Below are positions 29,955-58,256 of a stretch of 64,000 nt of DNA, piece by piece (position 1 is the first letter of the stretch; each line of letters starts with the position of its first letter). The DNA comes from Pegea sp. RAD2-039 (taxonomy: Eukaryota > Chordata > Thaliacea > Salpida > Salpidae), in assembly GCA_034620365.1 (NCBI GenBank), contig JAQGEQ010000193.1:1-64000 (forward strand), read 5' to 3'. Both the position numbers and the translations under genes were made by a program. The notes beneath the pieces are model-generated. The model saw nothing but the letters and a program-made list of their open reading frames with translations, was not told the DNA's origin and did no database searches.

Positions 29955-32900
29955 TTTGAATAAAAATTTTATTATAAATTAACAGAAGACAACAAAAAAA
30001 TTCTCGGATACAAATCTCTAGATAATAAATTGATTTTATTTTAGTTAGTAATACAGAGCAAAGGATTAAATATCAGTTTAAGTTGTTAAGTTTATAACAA
30101 TTAAATATGAATACTAATAGCATTTTAGTATAGATATATTGTTGACATAAAATTTAAAAATTAAATACATCTAACCAAAAGCAAATTCAGTTAAAAGTGA
30201 AGTAATAAATAAATTAAACATTTTTTTCTTATTTATTGACAGAGAATACCATTAGTTAAAGGCTTTAAAAACTTATTTACTATGAAATTGATAAAATAGA
30301 AATATATAACTAATTAAAGTTAAAACAACATTAAAGAAATTTGCTATCTTAAAACATGTAATCTAGATATGGATAAAAAATTGTAGTATAATACTTGAAG
30401 ATACAGTTTTCATTATATTTGCAAAATTAATTACAAAATTTTTACAAAAATGATTTTTTATAAGAAAAAAAACAATCAAATGCAAATCATATAAAAAATT
30501 TAACTAAAATTTAAAACTACAAAACATAATCTAAACATAGAAAGAAAGATGAATAAGAAACTTTTAGTTTTATAATGCAGTTAATACTAATCAAATATTA
30601 AGAAAAAATCTTTAAAAGTATTTATCAAATTATATATTAGTTTTCTAAAGTTAAAAAAAGAAATAAAATTGAAATCAAAGTTTAAGTATACTAACTATTA
30701 AAATGATTAATAAATGAAACTAAATGTAAATATAATTCCATCAATATTTATCCTTAAAATTTGATAGAAGAATTACATCATATATGAAAATTATATTAGG
30801 ACTTAAATCTGGAAAAAATTTACGAAAAAGCCAAAAATTAACAAACAACTCATAACATAACTTTGTATAAATTTTCAGAAGAATGTAAAAAATGAAATCA
30901 TAAAACTTATATTTTTATTCACGAAAAGTAAATATGATTTAATATGTCATTTGTTTCACACAAAAATTTAAAAACAGTAATATATATTTTAAAAACAATT
31001 AAAAATCATAAAAAAAATATCTGACAAGCCGTCTTAAATTTAGAATATTAAGTTTACAAATAGATTATAGAAATAAAAAACAAAGGAATATTTAACAAAT
31101 ATAAGATATCTTTGGTTGACTTTATTTCTAAAGCTGCACTATGTAAAATATTGAACACTCAAAACCGGCTTAGAACCACTAGTAACAACAATCAACATAG
31201 ATGGAGCCAAAGAGCAGTATTTTTTTGATTATTTGGTTACAAAAACATTAATGAAAATGTTTATATTTGAAAAATAAATCTAAACTGAAAAGTTCTCTAG
31301 TCACCAACAGAAGTATAAAATCTTTCTACTAAAAATTATATCATGAGTTTTTTCAAACAAAAGTAAATTGTTTAAGTTACAAAATTGAATGCTTAAGATA
31401 ATTATTAATATAATAGAAATAATTAAATATTTGGTGAACAAATTTTTAGAACAGTTAATTGTTGTAAATATTTAATGTTCTACCAATATTTTTATTCAAA
31501 AATAAATTAAGATTAGCATAACAACAGAATATAACATCTATATATGTTGTGTTCATAGATTAAAAAAGAGTTTAGTTAGTGTGACACAAAAAGATAGGAT
31601 AATAAGAACTTACTTCTAAGAATACAAAGTAACAAAATGGTATTTTATAAAAATATTTCAGCCAAACTAAAGAGCACAACTAAATGTTTTAGTGATGAGA
31701 AGAGTAAAAAAATTAAAGGAAAAATGAAATTGAACTTTATAAATCTGAATATAAAGTTTAATGAAAATTTATTTGGAAAATTCTAAAATAAATTGTGATA
31801 AGAATTAATTTGCCTATTATCCATCGTCATCGAGCGATCGATTTGTTTTTAATTTATTTTTTTGATTTTATAATCAGTTTCAAAACCTAAATAATCTGTT
31901 TAGTATTTTCTGCTATTTTCAAATATAACCGAGGCCGTTTACACAAATATATAATAATATTAGATGCTATAAGAATTTAAATATCATAAAAGTAGCCAAG
32001 ATGGCAGAAGACTGCAGATAATGAAACAGCTAGATTTAAACTTACATTGTATTTTGCAAATATTTTGTCAGTGCGAAATGGCAAAGATCCTAATATTAAC
32101 AACAAGAGTGAAAATGTTGACAGTAATTAAAGTTTATGTTAAAAAAGTTCTATTAATCTTACATTAATATTTAATACGAGTATAAAAATACAAATAATAT
32201 TAAACAAGTTATATCAAACTAAAATTAGTCTAAAATTTTCTACCTTCCCTAAAAACTTAATATATAGATATATATCTGTCAGAATATAAAGTTTATTTAA
32301 GTAGTAAATATTTTGTCATCATAAAACTATAATGGTTTTAATTCAAATTGATTTTATTATATTTAATAGTATTAAGTTGTACTACTTTTAAAGTAAACGT
32401 TTAAATATCTGCTACAAAAATTTTTAGACAATTCTTTTATTGTTTATACCATGTTAGCAGAAAAAATATATTAAAATCATTCTTTATGATTTTACATAAA
32501 GAATAAATATAATTTTATTTTTTGTTTTTTATTTCATTTTAACAAAATACAGTTTGAAAACTGATTTCCTGAGAGACTTAATAATCTTTTTGTTGATATT
32601 ATTTCCAATTAAATGTATAAAATTTTGAAATTAGGTTTTTTGATTCTTTATCGATTTTCAGTAAAACTTTTACCAAAAAGCATTGTAGAGAAATTTTATA
32701 AAGTTTAATTTTGCATAAGTTTACCAAAAAGGTATATAGTAAAATATGTATAATATAATTAATAATAATATAATTAATATTATAATAAGAATAATATATA
32801 AATATACTATATATATAGCTAACATAATAATGCACTTTTTACTTTTATATTATTCTATTTAATTGATTATAAGTTTTATTGAGATATAATTATTTTTAAT

Positions 32901-33690
32901 TTTTTGTAAAATCCTTTTGTTTTGTAAGTGTTTAAACAATTTTAAAAACTTATTTGAATTAACTAAGGCTTAGTCATTAATAATTTTTAATTTTAATTTA
33001 TTAGATATCATATTTTCTTAGAAATCATCTTGTATTATATTTTACATTCGGTATTATTTTATTTAACCGAATTTACTCCAGAAGTACTTTGGTAAATTTT
33101 AAACTATGACATCAATTCTGAAAAGCTCCGGACTTATGAGCTCTACCGTAGAGGACCAAGTACTATAGTAGCCAACCAACAACACAGACCGACATCCATT
33201 TCTTTAAATAGTTATGGACATGATGTTTAAATACAAGAAACTCTTCTGAAATTACAAAACTTAGGTATATTCCTGAAAGAAGTATAAGATCGAACGTTAA
33301 TTTGGGGTATTGGAATTAACTAATTCGAAATACAAATAATCCAGCTAACACCTTTTTGTTATCCGGATTTCCTAAATTTAAAGAAACAATTTAAAGAAAA
33401 CTTAACTCACCTTTGAATGGACATCAAAAATCAATTCATGAATTGGATCTCATTGAACGTTTTATATTACTTTGGTAAGTGAATAATTTTCTTGGTTTGA
33501 TATTTCACTTATATCTTGGATAGTTCATAAAGTTACAAAGTAAAAAGTAAACTTTGAATTTATCTTCTACAACTTTATCAGGTAGTTTACGGCCATTAAA
33601 GATAAAACCAGAGGATTGTTTAATCAAAAACATTTAGTGAAACAAATTCAAAGAAATTGTGGATTAGAAACTACACCTTCTCAAAAAACT
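29955..33690. other. A+T-rich interval, no gene recognised
   Basis: It begins as the upstream region of the seven-exon gene. Long A and T runs dominate. The 78-aa open frame at 32,599-32,835 (minus) is a low-complexity Tyr/Ile run. A candidate exon-like stretch near 33,400-33,475 ends in a good donor (ctttggtaagtg) but cannot be tied to the MMP or any other gene. Confidence 0.4.
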
Positions 33691-33724
33691 TTATTATTTC
33701 TACGAGATTTTATTATTTCTAATT

Positions 33725-36700
33725 CATTGGTATTTAGGGCAGCTTAATTCAGTTCCACATGATATTCAGACTATCAAACTAACTGACATATTTATGCTAG
33801 GTGAGTTAGATGATAAGACAGTTGAGTTGATGACTCAACTACGATGCGGAGTCAGCGACGGCCCAGCTAACTATCATCTGTTTGAAAATCGCCCAAAGTT
33901 TGAAACAATGCCTGTTGGATACAAGTGAGATATTAACTAACTAAGTTTTAGAAAATCTATTTCTAAATGTGAAAAATAATTCTAAATCAATTTACTCTTT
34001 ATAGAATCGTCAATTACAGTCCCGATATGGGCCCATGTAAAACTAGAAATATCATGAAACCAGCCTTGAGATTTTGGGAGTAAGCTGCAGAAATAACTTT
34101 TGTTGAAAAAGGCCCTGATGAGCCTGCAGATATGATAATTGACTTCGGCTACAGTAATTTAATTTTGTGATGTTTTTAAAGTATCATTACTCACTATAAA
34201 TCTTTTATTCTCGAGATGAACATGGCCGTGGGTATCCATTTGACAGCGATAATGGCCTGCTTACTCATGATTGGGTTACTGATGATGGTGGTTTTGACGA
34301 TGGAGAGTTTTGGACTCTTGGAAAAGGGAAAGGTTTGTGGCCGAATCTTTAGAAAACTTTGATTAACAAAATATATATCAAAACGAGTCTTACCATTTGA
34401 TTGTGTAGAGAGAGTTTTAAGGAAAATTGCTTATTTGAATTTACTAGTTCTTAAAATATTTTTTTCATTGGTCTATTGCTTCTTGCAAATTGAGAATAAC
34501 TAACCAAAAAAAGATGAACTATAATTTAATATTTAAAAAATCTATTCTGAAACTACTTTTATTATTACTAAGTACTTTTATTTGAAATCTCAGTTGGCCA
34601 GATATATCAAGGAAACTCTGCTGTTGCTGTTTGTTATTTCCATTTTGCGTACAAAGAAAAAGAATATAGGAGATGAATTGATAACAATGAGCATCCAGGC
34701 TTCGAGAAGCATGAATGGTGTGGGACGACCAGTAATTATGACGTAGATCGCAAGTGTGGACTTTGCGGGAGTGAAAGTAAGTTTTGATTCATAAATAAAA
34801 TTCCATTCAGAAAATACAACTGGAATGTTTGTTTAATTGCTTTGTGGTTTGAAAATCAGCGTTTTGATGGTCTAAATAGTTTCAGGCTACTTTTCTGTTA
34901 ATCAAAACTGTTAATTTACTAACACAAGCTATTTTCAGCGCTGTTCACTTACGGTGGAAACGATGGAAGAGCAACTTGCTTTTTTCTTTTTGTTTTTATT
35001 GGTCAAACTTATGATGGTTGTACAAAAGATGGAAGAAATGACAAATACAGGTGGTGTGCAACAACCTCAAACTATGATGACGACGGTCAATGTGCTTTCT
35101 GTCCAGATAGTGTTGAAAAAATCATTTGACTACTTTTATTTAAAAATAATTTAAATCTTACAAACTTCAATCAAATATATCTGTTTTCAATTTTTTTCTT
35201 TTAAAACTATCTGCAGCCATTATTATTAACTTAATTTTACAAGTAAATCGTTTATACTTATTTATAAAGTGCCGGTGGAAGTAGTGATGGTGCAGATAAA
35301 CCTTGTCATTTCCCTTTCATTTTCAATGGTGATTCTTATTAGTGATGTACTGTTTTTGGTCGTAATAAAGGACGTAAATTGTGTTCAAAAACTGGTAACT
35401 ACGACACTGATGGAGAGTGGGGATTTTGTAATAATGACGGATACAGTTTTTTGCTTGTTGCTGCCCATGAAATCGGACATACAATTGGATTAGAACATTG
35501 AATATCAGCATCTGCCTTGATGTACCATATCTAAGTGCAGATGAACTTCGAGACAAAATAAACGTATAACTGGCATCGTCAACTGTAATCAAAATTAAAA
35601 CTTTTTCATTGTTACTCTTATGTCGAATATTTTGAGTTATCACAAGACGACATAAATGGAGCAAGAAGTTTATATGGAAAAAGGATATCTGCTCTTCCTC
35701 CAGTAGAGATTGAAAGATGTGGTGAAGATAATACAGATTTAGGAACAACTACGACAGCACCAACACATGTTACAACAACATTAAACGGAAGAAAAACAAC
35801 ACCACAAGCTAGCGAGAGGTAGTATAAATACCTGTTTTGTTAAACTCAGTAGTTTTTTAAGAATTAAGATATAATAGTTTAATGAAAAAACATAATAAAT
35901 ATTTTTAGATAGATTAGTTTGACTTATATATGCTCTTTAAATCTTGTGTGCTTTTTAACAGTTACAACTAGATAAAACACTGTTAGTAGTGATGATATCT
36001 GTGAGTTAACGTCTGTTGATGCAGTACTACTTTTTAATTCCGAAATCTACGTTTTAAAGGTTTGTAAATTTCTACTTTTGATATAAAAAGTTATTAAATA
36101 CAACAATTTAAATCTATTGAATATTTGAAAAAAAAACTTATCAATTTATTTCCAAACAGGGGTATTATTTTTGGAGAATAAATACCCGGAACAGAGCTTT
36201 ACGTCGTGGTCCATATGAGATGTCCGATCAGTGGTCAGGTGGTTCACAAACTGTAGACGCAGCATATAAGAGGCCAAATGATGAGGCTGTAATTCTCTTC
36301 AAAGGTAAAAATCATTTAAAGAAATAGCAAAATTTCTTTTAAAGTTACTTTATTTATTTAAACAGTTTTTTTGATAACCAAATTAAAATAGTAAAACGAA
36401 GTAAAATTGTTAAAAATTATTCAATTTAGGTCAACGTTATTGGATCTTTGATAGTTATCATCTGAAGGGTGGCGATCCAAAATATCTCAGTTCTTTAGGC
36501 TTACCACAAAACCTTCTGAAATAATACCTGGTAGTGATTTGGTATCGTACAAAAGAACGAAAACGTTCCTTCTTTTTCTCTGGTGATCAATACATTAGGT
36601 AAAGTTTTTAAAACGGTTTTCGAAAGGTTACTTATCTTGTAGTTTTTTAAAATAATTATTTCCTGTATTTATTGTATTTATAACAATTATTTTATAAATA

Positions 36701-37059
36701 ATGAAGTTAAAAAGGGAATAGATCAAGGCTATCCAAGAAATACTGAAAGTTGGATCATTGATTACACAGATTTTAACGCTGCAATATAAGATCCATACAC
36801 TAAACGTAGGCTTTCAAATACTTTGTTACAACTTTAAGTTTTAAATGAACTAGAAAAATCCCATTTCTACGAAATTTAATTAATTTTGTAAAAAGTACGA
36901 TTATTATTATTTAGATAATATATATAAGTCTTGTAACAATTTATTTGTTCAACAATTCGTTTTAGGTTATACAGTGTTTTCCGTGGAGACAAAGTCTACT
37001 TACTGCACAACTACAAATTAAAGATAAATGATGTCTACAGTCTTTTTGAATCCTTTTAA
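33725..37059 (+). pseudogene. Gelatinase-type matrix metalloproteinase (FN2 + hemopexin), degenerate
   Basis: Exon by exon it reads as an MMP-2/MMP-9-like enzyme. The propeptide (about 33,725-33,924) has the cysteine switch LRCGVSD. The catalytic domain, part 1, is at 34,005-34,153 (VNYSPDMG) and 34,216-34,332 (EHGRGYPFD). Three fibronectin type II modules follow, each on its own exon (34,594-34,776; 34,939-35,109; about 35,270 on), with WCGTTSNYD and WCATTSNYD motifs. Then come the zinc site HEIGHTIGLEH (35,466-35,498), a Met-turn ALMY, a Thr-rich hinge (exon ending 35,818) and hemopexin repeats (35,962-36,059; 36,160-36,304; 36,430-36,598; about 36,692-36,789; 36,966-37,059). In-frame stops occur at 34,081 (TAA), 34,674 (TGA at a conserved Cys position), 35,340 and 35,343 (TAG, TGA), 35,499 (TGA), 36,522 (TAA) and 36,787 (TAA). 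The second FN2 exon does not join the third in phase. No signal peptide was found. MMPs of this type degrade extracellular matrix, and FN2 modules bind gelatin in the vertebrate enzymes. This copy cannot make an intact protein. Confidence 0.88.
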
Positions 37060-37556
37060 TGATGGTTTACTGTAGACAATTCATCTTTCGACCATCCCTA
37101 ACTTCATTTTTTAAGCCTTTTTGTAAATCATATAGTTTCTATAAATACAACAAATTTACTCTTTTTCTGTCAGATTTTGTTTCAGCTAATTCTTTTAACT
37201 TCTACTTCGGTGTGTCTTAATAAAATCATAATTTCCTAAAAAGCTGAATTTTTTTAATGAATTTTACCTTCAATTTTCAATTTCATTTCAAGTTAATGAT
37301 CAAGATTTGTTTTCATGAAGTCAACAGATTTTAGTTTTAGATAATAAAAGCAAAATTAAGCAATTGACCGAATAAATTTAATCATTTTATTATTAAAAAC
37401 TATCACTCAACACTAAATCTACTAATTTAGATTAATAGAAAGCCTCTAAAACTGGTAAACAGACAATATCTAAGACTCAAGGTTGCCAATAAAAATTCAA
37501 AATTGTCAAAAAATTGATTTTTTGATCTTATTCTGCAAATATAAGACTTACACGTA
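37060..37556. other. Spacer between the MMP pseudogene and the TGF-beta duplication
   Basis: A+T-rich sequence with nothing recognisable. The segment shared with the window start begins at or before 37,557. Confidence 0.4.
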
Positions 37557-39917
37557 ATCTTACACAATTTATAAACAAATTTGCAGTAGCTAATTTTAAA
37601 TGTTCCTATTAAAGGAATAATTTTGAGAAAAATTTCAGCTTACTAAATTTGATCATAGTAAAATATATTTCATATAAATAGTATATAAATTTAGGTTTAG
37701 TATTATCTAATCTGTATTTCTTCTGTTTCAAATTTATAACTAAATAGCATCATTTTGGTGCTTTATTAATAGTTTAATAATTTTTGATTTTTAGACATAT
37801 GATGTCACAGTAAGTGTTACTTTCATAATGGGCTGTAAGTTCATTAGGAAAAGTGAGATATTATGTCAGGGAAGATCTTCGTTTCACAAAGCTTAGCTGG
37901 ATATCAGATATTAGATGGTGTTCCATTGAAGCAGTGGTCATATGGTTGTGAATGATATGTTCTTCTGATCTGCAGAAAACTAAATTCAGCAAAACTAGAC
38001 TCTTCCTCGCCTTATAGTGATGTTAAAGAGTAGACATCAGGCTAGTAATAAGATGGAAGTAGTTTTTCCTAAAAACTAGAGAGTAGTATGATTGGGAGGT
38101 TTTGGAAACTGATAATTTCACAGAATAATTAGTCTTAGCAACCATATCCTACGCTATGTCAAGATCTATCATCTCAGAAACAATTTTAAAAATGTTGGAG
38201 TAGGAAAGAAAGGGAGTGTTGCCATCATCGGTTAAAAAACCGCTATTAGATTGTTTGTTTAGCAAATAAGCTTTATTCTCTGGTTCCGTCTAAAGTTGGA
38301 TGTTTTTATCAAGCAAGAGAGGTACTAGTCAAATAGATGCTACAAGTATTATTTGTAAGTACATGAATTTTTTAATTTGTAGTGCTTCTATCTGTTTTAA
38401 CATATTACATTTTTTTCTCAAATTTTTCTCAAACATTTCTAACCTTCCACTTTCTATAGTTAAATTATTCATCCAATAATAGGTAAATCAATTTAGAAAT
38501 TCATAAGACTGAGCTTGAAACTCAAAAGTAGCTTAAACTAAATTTTTTTTATATTCAATTTTACTGCTAATAAATTACTTCAAAAAACTTAAATTTGTAG
38601 ATTTTTCAGACTTTATTATTAAAAAGTTTCAAAATATGTTTACTAAACACCAAGTAGTCAGCAAATGTCGCAGCATTTAACAATCTATCGAAAACAAAAC
38701 GAAATGCAAAGATTACATAAACACATAATTATAAATAGTTTATTTCAGACAATAAGTTACTTTGCAGTGTTTGTTTTGATGCAAACTTTGCAGTTAACAA
38801 ACTACTTGTAGAATTATTTTAACGCATTACTTTCTAAACACAATTACATCCTGAAATTACCATATCTTCGACTTTTGAGATGACAACATTGTTGTTACTG
38901 TCACGATATATAATACTGAGTGGCAGCATTTCCTTAGGAGCACAGCAGCTCTTAGTTTGGTCTTCTGTCAAATAATCAGTTGCATGAGCTAACATTTTTC
39001 CTCTCATCGTATCCCGAGTATGAGCATAATTACATCCACCGGTACAGTACTTAGCATTAAAGCTTTTTGGGTAGAGAACCCAATCCATGCCCACTTGTTC
39101 AAAATTAAGTTCCATGTCAAACAAACAGCAATGAAGATGTACATTCTTCCCAGAGCACTCTGATGGTGTTTGAGAGCCAGAAGAACGTTTCCCTCTTTTC
39201 AATAGGGTTGTATCTTCCACAAGTGCAGTTTGCATGTAAGGTTTCTGAAAATTCATTAATCTTATTATTGTTTGTAAACAATATTAGTGAATAATAACAA
39301 CCTGTGTCTTATTTTACCATTTAGTTAATAAAATATTTAATTAAAAGTAATATTTAATAAAAATTAAAACATTAGATCTTGAACTATTTAACCCTTCATC
39401 ATATTTTATTTTATATTTTAAAAATTTCATGAAAGAATTATATTTTTGATAAAAAGCTTTTTTCGAATCTGTAAACAGTTGTTAGCTTGGTACAAAATTT
39501 AGCTCGAAATAAATAATCTGATTTTCAATTAAACTAATTTATCAAAAACAAAATAGAACATCACTTTTTTAAAGAGGAACTATTATTTGAAATATTTGTT
39601 AGTTAATACAAGAAAATCTTAACTGTAAACAAAATTTGTAAACAAAACTTACAAGCTTTTCTTCATTGGTCGTCAACACAATATCTTGAGCATCTTTTGT
39701 AGGTATTACTTTCATCAGTTTAAACATATTTTTATTAAATAGCATTCCATTGACAGAATCAGTTATCTCAATTTTTAGCCAGTGACCTTTGTCCGATTTG
39801 ATGGGAATATGAAGTGTTTGACCTGTTACTGGAATGTAACTTCCGTTTCCAGCTTTTTTAAAATGTATTAACGTAATTTGAGCAACACTTGGTCCAAGCC
39901 TTGTAGTATTAGGAAGA
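37557..39917. repeat. Segmental duplication, copy 2 (partner 1-2,363)
   Basis: This is the copy that lies within the intact GDF8/11-like gene, and so it is probably the source. It covers the 3' flank, exon 3, intron 2 and most of exon 2. The conserved GC-richer block lies at about 37,790-38,350. Confidence 0.9.
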
Positions 39918-40827
39918 ATATAAAGCCACAAAGTTGATTTTTGAGCTTTAAACTTCTTTTTGTCATCTGTCATTTCAAAGTAGCAACCTTCATCACTTTC
40001 TTCAATCTTTTCGTTAGGAACTGAAACAAATATATCTTTAGAAATTAATCTATAAATCAATTTTTGTTGATTCTAGGAAATATGTATGTAAACAAATAAC
40101 AACTAGAGAACTTATTATTCATATCAACACAATATTCTAACAAGAAGATAGAAATCATAACGATAAAGCAAATTTTTTTTCAAATTTTCCAATTGTATTA
40201 GCTAACAGTCAATCAGCAAAACCAAAGATAATTAAAGAGCTAAATAATTGAAACATACAAAATGATGAATATTAACCAAACTAACAACTTCTTAATCTAT
40301 TTTTGTAACATAACAATCAATCATGTTTTTGCAAAAATATTCTTTTAAATATCCAAACAACAGCATAACAATTCAATTCCTACAACAGACTAGTAAGTAC
40401 AGAAATTCTTGCTTCCGGTTTTTCAGTAAAATTTTCAAATTAAAAAATTTAAACCGAGTAAACATATCCACTTACCGAGCTTAGACATACTGAAAATTTC
40501 CTTTGTTTCAGTTTTCATTTTTCGAGAGTTAATTTCAGAGAGTCTGTCCAAACGATCGATTCCAAGTATTTTCTTCATCGAAGCAATAGTAATCTGACTA
40601 GGTAAGTCACTTTTGCTCACGTTCGGTGGTTCTTTCATATTCAGCTTTACTAACAACTCCTTCTGAAATTGTTTGATTCTGTTGTCTTGTAAACGTTGGT
40701 GTAGCATACAGGTTTTATCATTTTCTTCACATCTATCGGTCGCGAAGAAGCTTGTTGAAGCAAGAGGTGCCATAATAACCAACCATAAGATACAACCAGT
40801 AAAAAAAATCATACTTTTTCGATTCAT
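38834..40827 (-). CDS. GDF8/GDF11 (myostatin)-like TGF-beta superfamily ligand, 376 aa
   Basis: The three exons are 40,827-40,476, 40,020-39,653 and 39,244-38,834. They have GT-AG ends and matching phases (1, then 0). The total of 376 aa is close to vertebrate myostatin (about 375). Exon 1 carries a signal peptide (hydrophobic FFTGCILWLVIMAPLASTSF) and the start of the prodomain, with KLNMKEPPNVSKSDLP matching the KLRL..APNIS prodomain motif of GDF8/11. Exon 2 has the STLWLYILP beta-strand and GHWLKIEI, typical of the prodomain arm. Exon 3 has a furin site (RGKR, residues 257-260) and a 116-residue mature domain with nine cysteines in the TGF-beta/activin/myostatin pattern (CC....DW...YCTGGC...SCC...GCNCV). 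Ligands of this class signal as disulfide dimers through type I and II receptor kinases to Smad2/3. The start was chosen because MNRKSM leads directly into the signal peptide; in-frame upstream Met codons exist. An AATAAA lies at 38,739-38,744 (minus). Activin-like is the main alternative. Confidence 0.85.
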
Positions 40828-45678: not shown

Positions 45679-47595
45679 ATGTGGAATTCTACAAGTGAAA
45701 TCTATAAGCGACAGCAAGAAGAAAAACTTCGTCAACAAGAAGAAAAACGTCGTCAACAAGAAGAAAAACGTCGTCAACAGCAAGAAGAAAAACTTCGTCA
45801 ACAAGAAGAAAAACGTCGTCAACAAGAAGAAAAACGACGTCAACAGCAAGAAGAGAAACGTCGTCAACAAGAAGAAAAACGTCGTCAACAAGAAGAGAAG
45901 CGTATTCAGCGTGAACAAGAAAAGATGCGTCAAGCAGAAGAAGCAAAGGAGATAATTCGTAGACAAGACGAATACAATCGTCGTGAACAAGAAGAAAGAC
46001 GTCAACAACAACAAGAAGAAAAACGTCGTCAACAAGAAGAGAAACGTCGTCAACAAGAAGAGAAACGTCGACAACAAGAAGAGAAACGTCGTCAACAAGA
46101 AGAGAAACGTCGTCAACAAGAAGAGAAGCGTATTCAGCGTGAACAAGAAAAGATGCGTCAACAGGAAGAAAAACGTGTTCAACGTGAGCAAGAAAAGATG
46201 CGTATACAAGAAGAAAAACGTCGTCAACAAGAAGAAAAACGTCGTCAACAAGAAGAGAAGCGTATTCAGCGTGAACAAGAAAAGATGCGTCAAGAAAAAG
46301 AAGCAAAGGAGATAATTCGTAGACAAGACGAATACAATCGTCGTGAACAAGAAGAAAGACGTCAACAAAAACAAGAAGAAAAACGTCGTCAACAAGAAGA
46401 AAAACGTCGTCAACAAGAAGAAAATAGACTTCGTAATCAGGAACAGCAAGAAAGACTTCAACGAGAAAGAGAGGAACAGGAGAGAATAAAGCGTCTAGCT
46501 GAATATCAGCGAATGCAACAAGCGTCAGCAAATAACCGACAAAGAGAAATAATGCTTCGTCAACAAGAACAAGAAAATCGTCGATTACAAGAAGAAAAAC
46601 GTCGCCAACAAGAAGAAAATAGACTTCGTAAGCAGGAACAGCAAGAAAGACTTCAACGAGAAAGAGAGGAACAGGAGAGAATAAAGCGTCTAGCTGAATT
46701 TCATCTAATGCAACAAGCATCAACAAATAACCAACAAAGAGAAATAATGCTTCGTCAACAAGAGCAAGAAAATCGTCGATTACAAGAAGAAAAACGCCTT
46801 CAACAAGAAGAAAAACGTCGCCAACAAGAAGAAAAACGTCGTCAACAAGAAGAAAAACGTCGTCAACAAGAAGAAAAACGTCGCCAACAAGAAGAAAATA
46901 GACTTCGTAAGCAGGAACAGCAAGAAAGACTTCAACGAGAAAGAGAAGAAAAGGAGAGAATAAAGCGTCTGGCTGAATCTCATCTTATGCAACAAGCATC
47001 AACATATAACCAACAAAGAGAAATAATGCTTCGTCAACAAGAACAAGAAAATCGTCGATTACAAGAAGAAAAACGTCGTCAACAAGAAGAAAAACGCCTT
47101 CAACAAGAAGAAAGACGTCGTCAACAAGAAGAAAATAGACTTCGTAAGCAGGAACAGCAAGAAAAACTTCAAAGAGACAGAGAACAACAGGAGAGAACAA
47201 AGCGTCTGACTGAATCTCATCTTATGCAACAAACGTCAGCATACAAACCAAAATCAGAAATGATACTTCGTCATCAAGAACAAGAAAATCGTCGATTACA
47301 AGAAGAAAAGCGCCTTCAACAAGAAGAAGAAAAACGTCGTCAACAAGAAGAAAGAAGATATCAACGTGACCAAGAAAACTTTAGAAAACAAGAAGAAAAA
47401 CGTTTTCGACGTGAACAAGAGAGGATGCGTCGACAAGAAGAAGAAAGCCAGGTAGTTCGTCAGCATAACGAACAGATTCGTCGTGAACAAGTAGAAAGAC
47501 GTCGACAACAAGAAGAAGAGAAAAGTCGTCGACACGAAGAAAGGCTACGAAGACAAAGAGAAGCAATGTTTAAAAATGACAAGACTCACTGCTAG
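45679..47595 (+). CDS. Heptad-repeat (trichohyalin-like) coiled-coil protein A, 638 aa
   Basis: This is an unbroken single-exon frame starting MWNSTSEIYKRQ, a start shared by paralogs B and C. Almost the entire protein is built from Glu, Gln, Arg and Lys in the seven-residue unit RRQQEEK, so a long charged alpha-helix or coiled coil is expected. Higher-order units are visible. One is REQEKMRQ..EAKEIIRRQDEYNRREQEERRQQ (twice in the first 250 residues). The other begins ENRLR.QEQQERLQRE and runs to MLRQQEQENRRLQEE, starting near residues 249, 314, 406 and 485. The C-terminal ~100 residues are less repetitive and nearly identical to protein B, ending KNDKTHC. There is no signal peptide or membrane segment, so a cytoplasmic structural role is plausible but unproven. 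The family shows similar composition to trichohyalin and caldesmon-like proteins, which can arise by convergence. Antisense frames through the repeat are by-products. Confidence 0.8.
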   Translation: MWNSTSEIYKRQQEEKLRQQEEKRRQQEEKRRQQQEEKLRQQEEKRRQQEEKRRQQQEEKRRQQEEKRRQQEEKRIQREQEKMRQAEEAKEIIRRQDEYNRREQEERRQQQQEEKRRQQEEKRRQQEEKRRQQEEKRRQQEEKRRQQEEKRIQREQEKMRQQEEKRVQREQEKMRIQEEKRRQQEEKRRQQEEKRIQREQEKMRQEKEAKEIIRRQDEYNRREQEERRQQKQEEKRRQQEEKRRQQEENRLRNQEQQERLQREREEQERIKRLAEYQRMQQASANNRQREIMLRQQEQENRRLQEEKRRQQEENRLRKQEQQERLQREREEQERIKRLAEFHLMQQASTNNQQREIMLRQQEQENRRLQEEKRLQQEEKRRQQEEKRRQQEEKRRQQEEKRRQQEENRLRKQEQQERLQREREEKERIKRLAESHLMQQASTYNQQREIMLRQQEQENRRLQEEKRRQQEEKRLQQEERRRQQEENRLRKQEQQEKLQRDREQQERTKRLTESHLMQQTSAYKPKSEMILRHQEQENRRLQEEKRLQQEEEKRRQQEERRYQRDQENFRKQEEKRFRREQERMRRQEEESQVVRQHNEQIRREQVERRRQQEEEKSRRHEERLRRQREAMFKNDKTHC

Positions 47596-50242: not shown

Positions 50243-51160
50243 TTAGCGATTGGTTTTATCTTTTTTTAACATTGCTTCTCTTTGTCTTTGGAGCCTGTTT
50301 TCGACTCGATCACGCTTTTCTCGTTCTTGTTGAAGCTTTTTTTCTTGTTCAAACTTATAACGTTTTTGTTCCAGTTGACGATGTTTTTCTTCTTGTTGTA
50401 GTAAACGTCGTTTTTCTCGTTCACGGCGATTTTCTTCGTAATGCTGACGAAGTACTTCCTTTTCTGCTTCTTTTTTTTGCATCTTTTCTTGTTCTCGTTT
50501 AAAACGTTTTTGTTCCTCTTGCCGACGTTTTTCTTCTTGTTTTCTCATTCTTTCTTGTTCACGCTGATAACGTTTTTGCTCCATCTGATGACGTTTTTCT
50601 TCTTGTTTTTGTTGACGTCTTTCTTCTTGTTCACGACGATTGTATTCGTCTTGTCTACGAATTATCTCCTTTGCTTCTTCTTCTTGACGCATCTTTTCTT
50701 GTTCACGCTGAATACGCTTCTCTTCTTGTTGACGACGTTTTTCTTCTTGTTTTTGTTGACGTCTTTCTTCTTGTTCACGACGATTGTATTCGTCTTGTCT
50801 ACGAATTATCTCCTTTGCTTCTTCTTCTTGACGCATCTTTTCTTGTTCACGCTGAATACACTTCTCTTCTTGTTGACGACGTTTTTCTTCTTGTTTTTGT
50901 TGACGTCTTTCTTCTTGTTCACGACGATTGTATTCGTCTTGTCTACGAATTATCTCTTTTGCTTCTTCTTCTTGACGCATCTTTTCTTGTTCACGCTTAA
51001 TACGCTTTTCTTCTCGTTGACGACACTTTTCTTCTTGTTGACGACGTTTCTCTTCTTGCTGTTGACGTCGTTTTTCTTCTTGTTGACGACGTTTTTCTTC
51101 TTGTTGACGACGTTTTTCTTCTTTTTGTCGTCTAAAGATTTCATCTGAAGAATTCCACAT
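50243..51160 (-). CDS. Heptad-repeat coiled-coil protein C, 305 aa
   Basis: The frame is unbroken from MWNSSDEIFRRQ to the end QREAMLKKDKTNR. It uses the same RRQQEEK heptad as A. It then has three tandem modules of about 45 residues (REQEKMRQEEEAKEIIRRQD, YNRREQEERRQQKQ), followed by a distinct C-terminal region (EVLRQHYEENRREREKRR) shared in part with protein B. It has the same start context as A (tttttgattttatcaccatg). The TATA-like word seen upstream of A and B is degraded here, so expression may differ or be lost. Confidence 0.75.
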   Translation of the reverse strand: MWNSSDEIFRRQKEEKRRQQEEKRRQQEEKRRQQQEEKRRQQEEKCRQREEKRIKREQEKMRQEEEAKEIIRRQDEYNRREQEERRQQKQEEKRRQQEEKCIQREQEKMRQEEEAKEIIRRQDEYNRREQEERRQQKQEEKRRQQEEKRIQREQEKMRQEEEAKEIIRRQDEYNRREQEERRQQKQEEKRHQMEQKRYQREQERMRKQEEKRRQEEQKRFKREQEKMQKKEAEKEVLRQHYEENRREREKRRLLQQEEKHRQLEQKRYKFEQEKKLQQEREKRDRVENRLQRQREAMLKKDKTNR

Positions 51161-54379: not shown

Positions 54380-55235
54380 TAAGCTGAGCATTTATTTGTA
54401 TAATAAGTATTTTAAAATTATAACCAATAACCTATATTTAGTAATTACTTAAATCAACTTAGGAAAGATTATTACAAAGCTAATTAAAAATTTCTAGTTT
54501 TGTAATAATTACTCTATTTAAATTTACACTAGGCATAAAAATAAAAGTTAAACATTATGCTCTTTTTGACGTCATCGCTTCGTGATAGTATATCATTTGA
54601 TGATCACCGCCATATGACATTTTAGATTGAAAACCTTATTTAAAATGAATCTGTACTTTTAGTGATATAGTAAATTCAATTTAAATCATCCGCTTTAACA
54701 AAATATATATCACTTCTAATTGTGATTTCATTTTCTTTTTTCAATTAACATTAGCGGTAAACAGCAATGACGAGTAAAACTGTCATATATACTTAAATAT
54801 TAACAGTTTTCACATGAGATTTTAAGGCTTACTTAACTTTGTTTGCTTCTAACATAAAGCTAGTTATACAAACTTTAAACAGACAACAATAGCATGAAAT
54901 AGTTGTTACCAAAAGTTTTCCTCTTCCTTAATATCATATTTTTTTTATTTTTCTTTAACTGTTTGCAGAAAACAGAACACTGGTTAGAGAGATCTGCTGC
55001 GAAAACTTCCCATTTATTATTTTTAATGCTAAATGTCTTCATATCGCAATTGGATGCATTCTTAAAACGAAGAAAAATATGAAAGCTTTTAAATTGTTGA
55101 TAATAATTTGTCATAACGTAATAAAAGACAGAGATTTATTAAAACGTTTCATTTCTGTAGCCAAAAAAAACTAATTAATAAGCTGATAAAATTAAAACAA
55201 ACAATTTTTTAAATTATCAGTTTTTAGATAATCTA
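54380..55235. other. Insertion specific to segment B, containing half a MITE
   Basis: This ~850-bp stretch interrupts the A/B alignment. It includes acactaggcataaaa, TGACGTCA (54,567-54,574) and atcatttgatgatcaccgcc, the left terminus of the MITE family, but no recognisable right terminus. A 79-aa minus-strand frame at 54,875-55,114 lies inside it and has no recognisable motif. Confidence 0.6.
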
Positions 55236-57800: not shown

Positions 57801-58256
57801 ATGTGGAATTCTACAAATGTAATCTATGAGCGACAACAAGAAGAAAAACGTCGTCAACAAGAAGAAAAACGTGTTCAACGTGAACAAGAAAAGAAGCGTC
57901 GACAAGAAGAAGAAAAGGAGGTAGCTCGTCAGCATTATGAACAAAATCGCCGTGAACGAGAGAAAAGACGTCAAGAAGAAGAAGAAGAAGAAAAACGTCG
58001 CCAACAAGAAGAAAGGCGATATCAACGTGATCAAGAAAACTTTAGAAAACAAGAAGAAAAACGTTTTCGACGTGAACAAGAGAGGATGCGTCGACAAGAA
58101 GAAGAAAGCGAGGTAGTTCGTCAGCATAACGAACAAATTCGTCGTGAACAAGTAGAAAGACGTCGACAACAAGAAGAAGAGAAAAGTCGTCGACACGAAG
58201 AAAGGCTACGAAGACAAAGAGAAGCAATGTTGAAAAATGACAAGACTCACTGCTAG
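57801..58256 (+). CDS. Heptad-repeat coiled-coil protein B, 151 aa
   Basis: The frame starts MWNSTNVIYERQQEEK. It has only two or three RRQQEEK heptads, a block like that of protein C (EVARQHYEQNRREREKRRQE), and a C-terminal ~100 residues almost identical to protein A, ending KNDKTHC. The central higher-order repeats of A are missing. The conserved termini with a variable middle suggest that the ends are the functional constant parts and that repeat number changes freely. Confidence 0.75.
   Translation: MWNSTNVIYERQQEEKRRQQEEKRVQREQEKKRRQEEEKEVARQHYEQNRREREKRRQEEEEEEKRRQQEERRYQRDQENFRKQEEKRFRREQERMRRQEEESEVVRQHNEQIRREQVERRRQQEEEKSRRHEERLRRQREAMLKNDKTHC

Follow-up and report, generated by a model that had tools for sequence, protein, structure and literature searches.

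A disabled gelatinase-type matrix metalloproteinase gene with three fibronectin type II modules, and its open paralogs, in a tunicate genome

The window analysed here (bases 1-64000 of contig C128, GC content 25.1%, from an assembly of 105.7 Mb in 387 contigs) contains, at 33108-37050 on the forward strand, the disabled remnant of a multi-exon gelatinase-type matrix metalloproteinase (MMP) gene. Taken together, our results make it highly probable that a gelatinase-type MMP gene of a tunicate has died here, the copy being non-processed and duplicated after its death. The family would most simply stem from a gelatinase in which fibronectin type II (FN2) modules were already present before the divergence of tunicates and vertebrates. 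The locus itself is an ordinary dead member of that family and of modest evolutionary interest.

The domains of the remnant follow the order propeptide, split catalytic domain, three FN2 modules, HExxHxxGxxH zinc site, Thr-rich hinge and hemopexin, with the three modules inserted after the first half of the catalytic domain and ahead of the zinc helix. The Pfam FN2 profile recognizes the modules above its curated cut-off at 34632-34766 (E 8.8e-6), 34977-35102 (E 8.9e-11) and 35304-35429 (E 1.5e-13), and a Matrixin match (PF00413, E 1.1e-8) covers 35397-35537. These matches and the exon alignment bear out the gelatinase architecture, with FN2 modules between the catalytic halves, that had been proposed in an earlier note on this DNA.

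All exon remnants (E1-E13) lie on the forward strand. Exon 1 (propeptide region) survives as two pieces detected by tblastn with the exon of an open paralog from contig C80, at 33108-33194 (62% identity, E 9.4e-8) and, with a stop, at 33347-33460 (63%, E 1.2e-9), separated by about 150 bases of other sequence. The other exons were delimited by alignment to the same paralog, in the case of E6-E8 together with the Pfam matches. E2 (33586-33675, donor lost) belongs to the propeptide, E3 (33800-33922) includes the cysteine-switch region, E4 (34006-34152, stop at 34081) covers the first catalytic half, and E5 (34215-34331) the end of that half with a degraded structural-metal region. FN2 module 1 lies in E6 (34596-34775, with a stop at 34674 that is private to the window copy), module 2 in E7 (34941-35111, donor lost), and module 3 in E8 (35268-35528, stops at 35340, 35343 and 35499, both splice sites lost) together with the motif HEIGHTIGLEH, which is kept and directly followed by a stop codon. 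E9 (35613-35810, acceptor lost, donor changed to GC) comprises the end of the catalytic domain and the Thr-rich hinge. Remnants of the hemopexin part begin in E10 (35964-36059, stop at 35973) and continue through E11 (36160-36303), E12 (36429-36596, stop at 36522) and E13 (36697-36810, stop at 36787, acceptor lost); a probable last hemopexin exon at 36966-37050 was recognized by eye, the paralog stretch compared ending at E13. The remnant that had been placed at 33725-37059 is therefore real but starts earlier, with the exon 1 pieces from 33108 and exon 2 at 33586-33675. The reading of one FN2 module per exon is correct for the first two modules, whereas module 3 is encoded together with the zinc site in a single exon. 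Of the two motifs described as still readable, the zinc ligands indeed are, whereas the cysteine switch reads LRCGVSD and departs from PRCGxxD; in the open C80 paralog it is PRCGVKD.

An intact paralog in the same genome, the search for which had been suggested as a check, was found at C80:622128-625764. Its 13 exons encode 719 amino acids without a stop (the model does not include the last exon), and 12 of 12 introns are of the GT-AG type. Pfam identifies three fn2 domains, Peptidase_M10 (PF00413, E 5e-44) and Hemopexin (PF00045, E 1.6e-16, in three stretches), while PG_binding_1 reaches 18.8 bits against a cut-off of 23; FN2 exons 1 and 2 are flanked by phase-1 introns on both sides. The window copy is 88.83% identical to this gene in exons and 82.62% in introns. 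The paralog is part of an array of five FN2-MMP loci near 623, 635, 643, 651 and 659 kb of C80, and the aligned exons of the other four copies are free of stops in the parts compared. The ratio dN/dS among the five array paralogs is 0.33-0.73 in all 10 pairs, and these genes are under weak purifying selection. Genome-wide, we found 59 FN2 matches (67 candidates scored) and 50 Matrixin matches (54 scored), and both domains occur together at no fewer than 11 loci besides the dead copies, namely the array, a locus at C80:133 kb with two FN2 modules, two loci on C32, one on C20 and two on C29. One of them was modelled, four array copies were aligned in parts, five loci were seen exon by exon, and the second C29 locus was called from FN2 and Matrixin profile matches alone. 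Other FN2 genes (L011 at C80:664-668 kb, L017 on C123 and L018 on C147) have no MMP domain in the stretches read, and an open frame of 1709 amino acids with three FN2 matches is present at C264:373197-377228.

The living array paralog resembles MMP-2 and MMP-9 in a probable propeptide cysteine switch, in the three FN2 modules that precede the zinc helix, in the hinge and in the hemopexin part, and has the run WGFC...GYSLxLVAAHEFGH in common with them. The FN2 insertion point of the array genes coincides with that in the solved structures of MMP-2 and MMP-9 (the query used had five wrong residues at its start), and the FN2 exons of vertebrates are also of the phase 1-1 type. On the other hand, the array genes differ from MMP-2/MMP-9 in the structural-metal region, where Asp is replaced by Cys (HGCGYPFDG), and in the encoding of module 3 and the zinc site by a single exon, whereas in vertebrate gelatinase genes these are found in separate exons. 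The families differ as well: there are two human gelatinases, whereas the tunicate genome has at least 11 FN2-bearing loci, including one paralog with only two modules, and the copy in the window is dead.

The choice posed in the earlier note between an ancient origin of the gelatinase architecture and an independent FN2 insertion was the right question, and the evidence leans towards a single insertion in the common ancestor of tunicates and vertebrates. With the FN2 modules removed, the catalytic domain of the C80:133 kb gene scores 155.3 bits with MMP-2, 149.2 with MMP-9, 134.9 with MMP-13 and 124.7 with MMP-20, and that of an array member 144.1 with MMP-2 and 136.8 with both MMP-9 and MMP-13. 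MMP-2 is therefore first in both FN2-bearing queries, by a clear margin for the former and a narrow one for the latter. Two FN2-less genes served as controls: the MMP on C265 prefers MMP-16 (158.4) and MMP-14 (155.0) to MMP-2 (129.4 bits), and the gene on C21 also has MMP-2 first, by 1.3 bits (142.8 vs 141.5 for MMP-13). In a catalytic-domain tree of 17 rows, six tunicate FN2 genes group together with support 97/99, and in the best tree they fall together with MMP-2/9 on the same side of a branch whose support is 42/41. A module-by-module comparison of the FN2 repeats with those of vertebrates gives no clear correspondence: only one of 22 inner branches of the module tree has good support, and by summed score the pairing 1-1, 2-2, 3-3 comes third among the six orders.

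The alternative is that tunicates acquired the three FN2 modules by an insertion of their own into the same catalytic loop, and that the genes then multiplied to at least 11 loci, so that the shared architecture would be convergent. Such a scenario could draw on the unmatched order of tunicate and vertebrate modules, on the value of only 42/41 for the branch that joins the tunicate genes to MMP-2/9, on the many FN2 matches in this genome, which put donor modules at hand, and on the difference in the exon that carries module 3. However, the insertion point, the number of modules and their phase-1 borders are alike in both groups, the catalytic cores score best with MMP-2 when FN2 is left out, and in the C80:133 kb gene a separate exon encodes the zinc site, as in vertebrates. 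We therefore regard convergence as unlikely. A single FN2 insertion before the tunicate-vertebrate split would be the simplest reading of the sequences, although the trees do not prove it.

Alignment to the open C80 paralog reveals eight in-frame stops in E2-E13 of the window copy, one each in E4, E6, E10, E12 and E13 and three in E8, and the stop in the exon 1 remnant brings the number of stop-bearing exons to seven. In addition, donors are lost after E2, E7 and E8, acceptors are lost before E8, E9 and E13, and the donor of E9 is now GC, so that the copy lacks an open frame with working splice sites. The at least six in-frame stops noted before, and the pseudogene status they implied, are confirmed. 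As the introns are retained, the copy is not a retrocopy.

A second copy of the dead gene, 96% identical to the first, is present at C128:106921-110156. The two agree at 97.95% of exon sites (1771/1808) and 96.64% of intron sites (1353/1400), and seven of the eight window stops are common to both, the stop in E6 being found only in the window copy; since these seven are shared, the gene must have been dead before the duplication. The second copy has its own small frame-breaking indels in exons 2, 5 and 7. The dN/dS between the two is 0.97 over 521 codons, a value that rests on few changes (7.5 synonymous and 27.5 non-synonymous), and the copies look neutral since their split. Similar divergence at all three codon positions was dropped as a mark of neutrality in favour of dN/dS, because the intact paralogs show nearly the same pattern. 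It could be argued that the window locus still functions, through alternative splicing, stop read-through or a regulatory RNA, given that E2, E3, E5, E7, E9 and E11 are stop-free and the zinc motif is still present. However, the stops in seven exons (exon 1 remnant included), the loss of splice sites at six exons and the dN/dS near unity between the C128 copies make this very improbable, and as a protein the locus is predicted to have no gelatinase function left.

The stretch common to the segmental-duplication copies extends over 30319-37456 of the window and recurs at C128:104-113 kb and also on C36, there with part of its interior deleted; the third copy of the gene, on C36, is 97% identical but truncated, without a counterpart of window 32195-35375. 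Furthermore, C261, C267, C273 and C287 each contain 486 bases of the pseudogene at 92% identity, linked to sequence from elsewhere in the window. These four dispersed loci (L071, L070, L068 and L069, respectively) are mutually 96-97% alike; in all of them window 33693-34174 is joined to 37990-38915, the stretch before a TGF-beta gene, and three of the four are also joined to a piece of 54540-54989. By their composition, they are a mosaic segmental duplication.

Duplicated sequences are also seen elsewhere in the window. Two genes with a TGF-beta domain, both on the reverse strand, are found at 1281-1703 (PF00019, E 2.9e-23) and 38834-39256 (E 1.3e-23), within a duplicated stretch of 94% identity that comprises 1-2364 and 37557-39918. 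Long repetitive open frames rich in Q, E, K and R, at 45679-47595 (+), 50243-51160 (-) and 57801-58256 (+), have been copied several times within the window, flanks included; for the one among them that is 638 amino acids long, Pfam gives no match at E 0.01.

That the host is an invertebrate, as assumed before, is correct, but the suggested cnidarian origin is contradicted by a cellulose synthase-GH6 locus and a spliced-leader array. The cellulose synthase test was the deciding one. On C14, the GT2 region of a cellulose synthase is followed after 1.5 kb by a GH6 domain on the same strand, and the two are presumably included in one transcript. The GT2 piece matches TIGR03030 with E 1.3e-31 and 109.4 bits (a piece only, the full-length cut-off being 699.1) and PF03552 with E 1.1e-7, and the GH6 domain (PF01341, E 1.8e-8) is the sole GH6 match in the genome. 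A 16-base leader exon, which we take to be the Ciona spliced leader, has 272 exact copies genome-wide (149 and 123 on the two strands), compared to none for the reversed control. At C4:1135044-1142217, it forms part of a tandem array of units of about 200 bp that resemble spliced-leader RNA genes, with the exon, GTAAGTG and a stem-loop; GTAAGTG directly follows the exon in all five C4 units printed. An Oikopleura dioica spliced-leader sequence has no match in the genome at up to 3 mismatches. According to passages of one source, GH6 is present in tunicates, where it is fused to cellulose synthase, and doubtful in all other Metazoa (PMC7464555). Two posterior-type homeodomains, one on each strand and separated by about 22 kb, are located at C235:97051-119385. 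From this genomic evidence the host is a tunicate, i.e. an invertebrate chordate, and probably ascidian-like. A cnidarian or rotifer contig is hardly credible, unless the contigs with the cellulose synthase and the spliced leader were contaminants: for rotifers there are the size of 105.7 Mb and the GC content of 25%, like those given for monogonont rotifers in part of PMC11954553, but this reading was ruled out by the mmr-b primer (in an excerpt of PMC2746195), which has no genome match at up to 3 mismatches, by the Brachionus catalase primer (in an excerpt of PMC11219915), which has one unrelated site with 3 mismatches that does not lie in a catalase frame, and by the two posterior-type homeodomains, posterior Hox genes being reported absent from rotifers in a passage of PMC5431905, while the cellulose synthase-GH6 locus and the spliced-leader array speak against both groups.

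A gelatinase is far less unexpected in a chordate that is a near relative of vertebrates, and the corrected taxon removes most of the surprise. Some value lies in the family: with no fewer than 11 FN2-bearing MMP loci in a tunicate, one can ask whether the gelatinase design predates the tunicate-vertebrate split. By analogy with MMP-2/MMP-9, the living paralogs would be secreted pro-enzymes that stay inactive as long as the cysteine of the propeptide occupies the catalytic zinc, and their three FN2 modules would keep denatured collagen in place at the active site for cutting. The family may descend from a gelatinase that had its FN2 modules before the split. The window copy most probably lost constraint and gathered stops and splice-site losses, and the dead gene then spread by segmental duplication.

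We found no description of FN2-bearing gelatinases in tunicates in the open-licence literature, among the matches listed, and the passages on planarians (PMC3566077) and echinoderms (PMC10381214) contain no FN2 gelatinases. Among known tunicate MMPs, Ciona MMPe has been reported as orthologous to the vertebrate MMP-2, 7, 9, 20 group (in part of PMC1867822) and another Ciona gene has been named MMP2/9/13 (in part of PMC6786877); these excerpts make no mention of FN2 modules in either. Both descriptions link tunicate MMPs to the MMP-2/9 group, and in this they resemble our genes. The history of the dead copies resembles that of pseudogenes left by birth-and-death duplication, with introns kept, lesions common among copies and open tandem paralogs elsewhere in the genome. 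The only difference is that here duplication also affected the gene after its death, and fragments of it were included in dispersed mosaic duplications.
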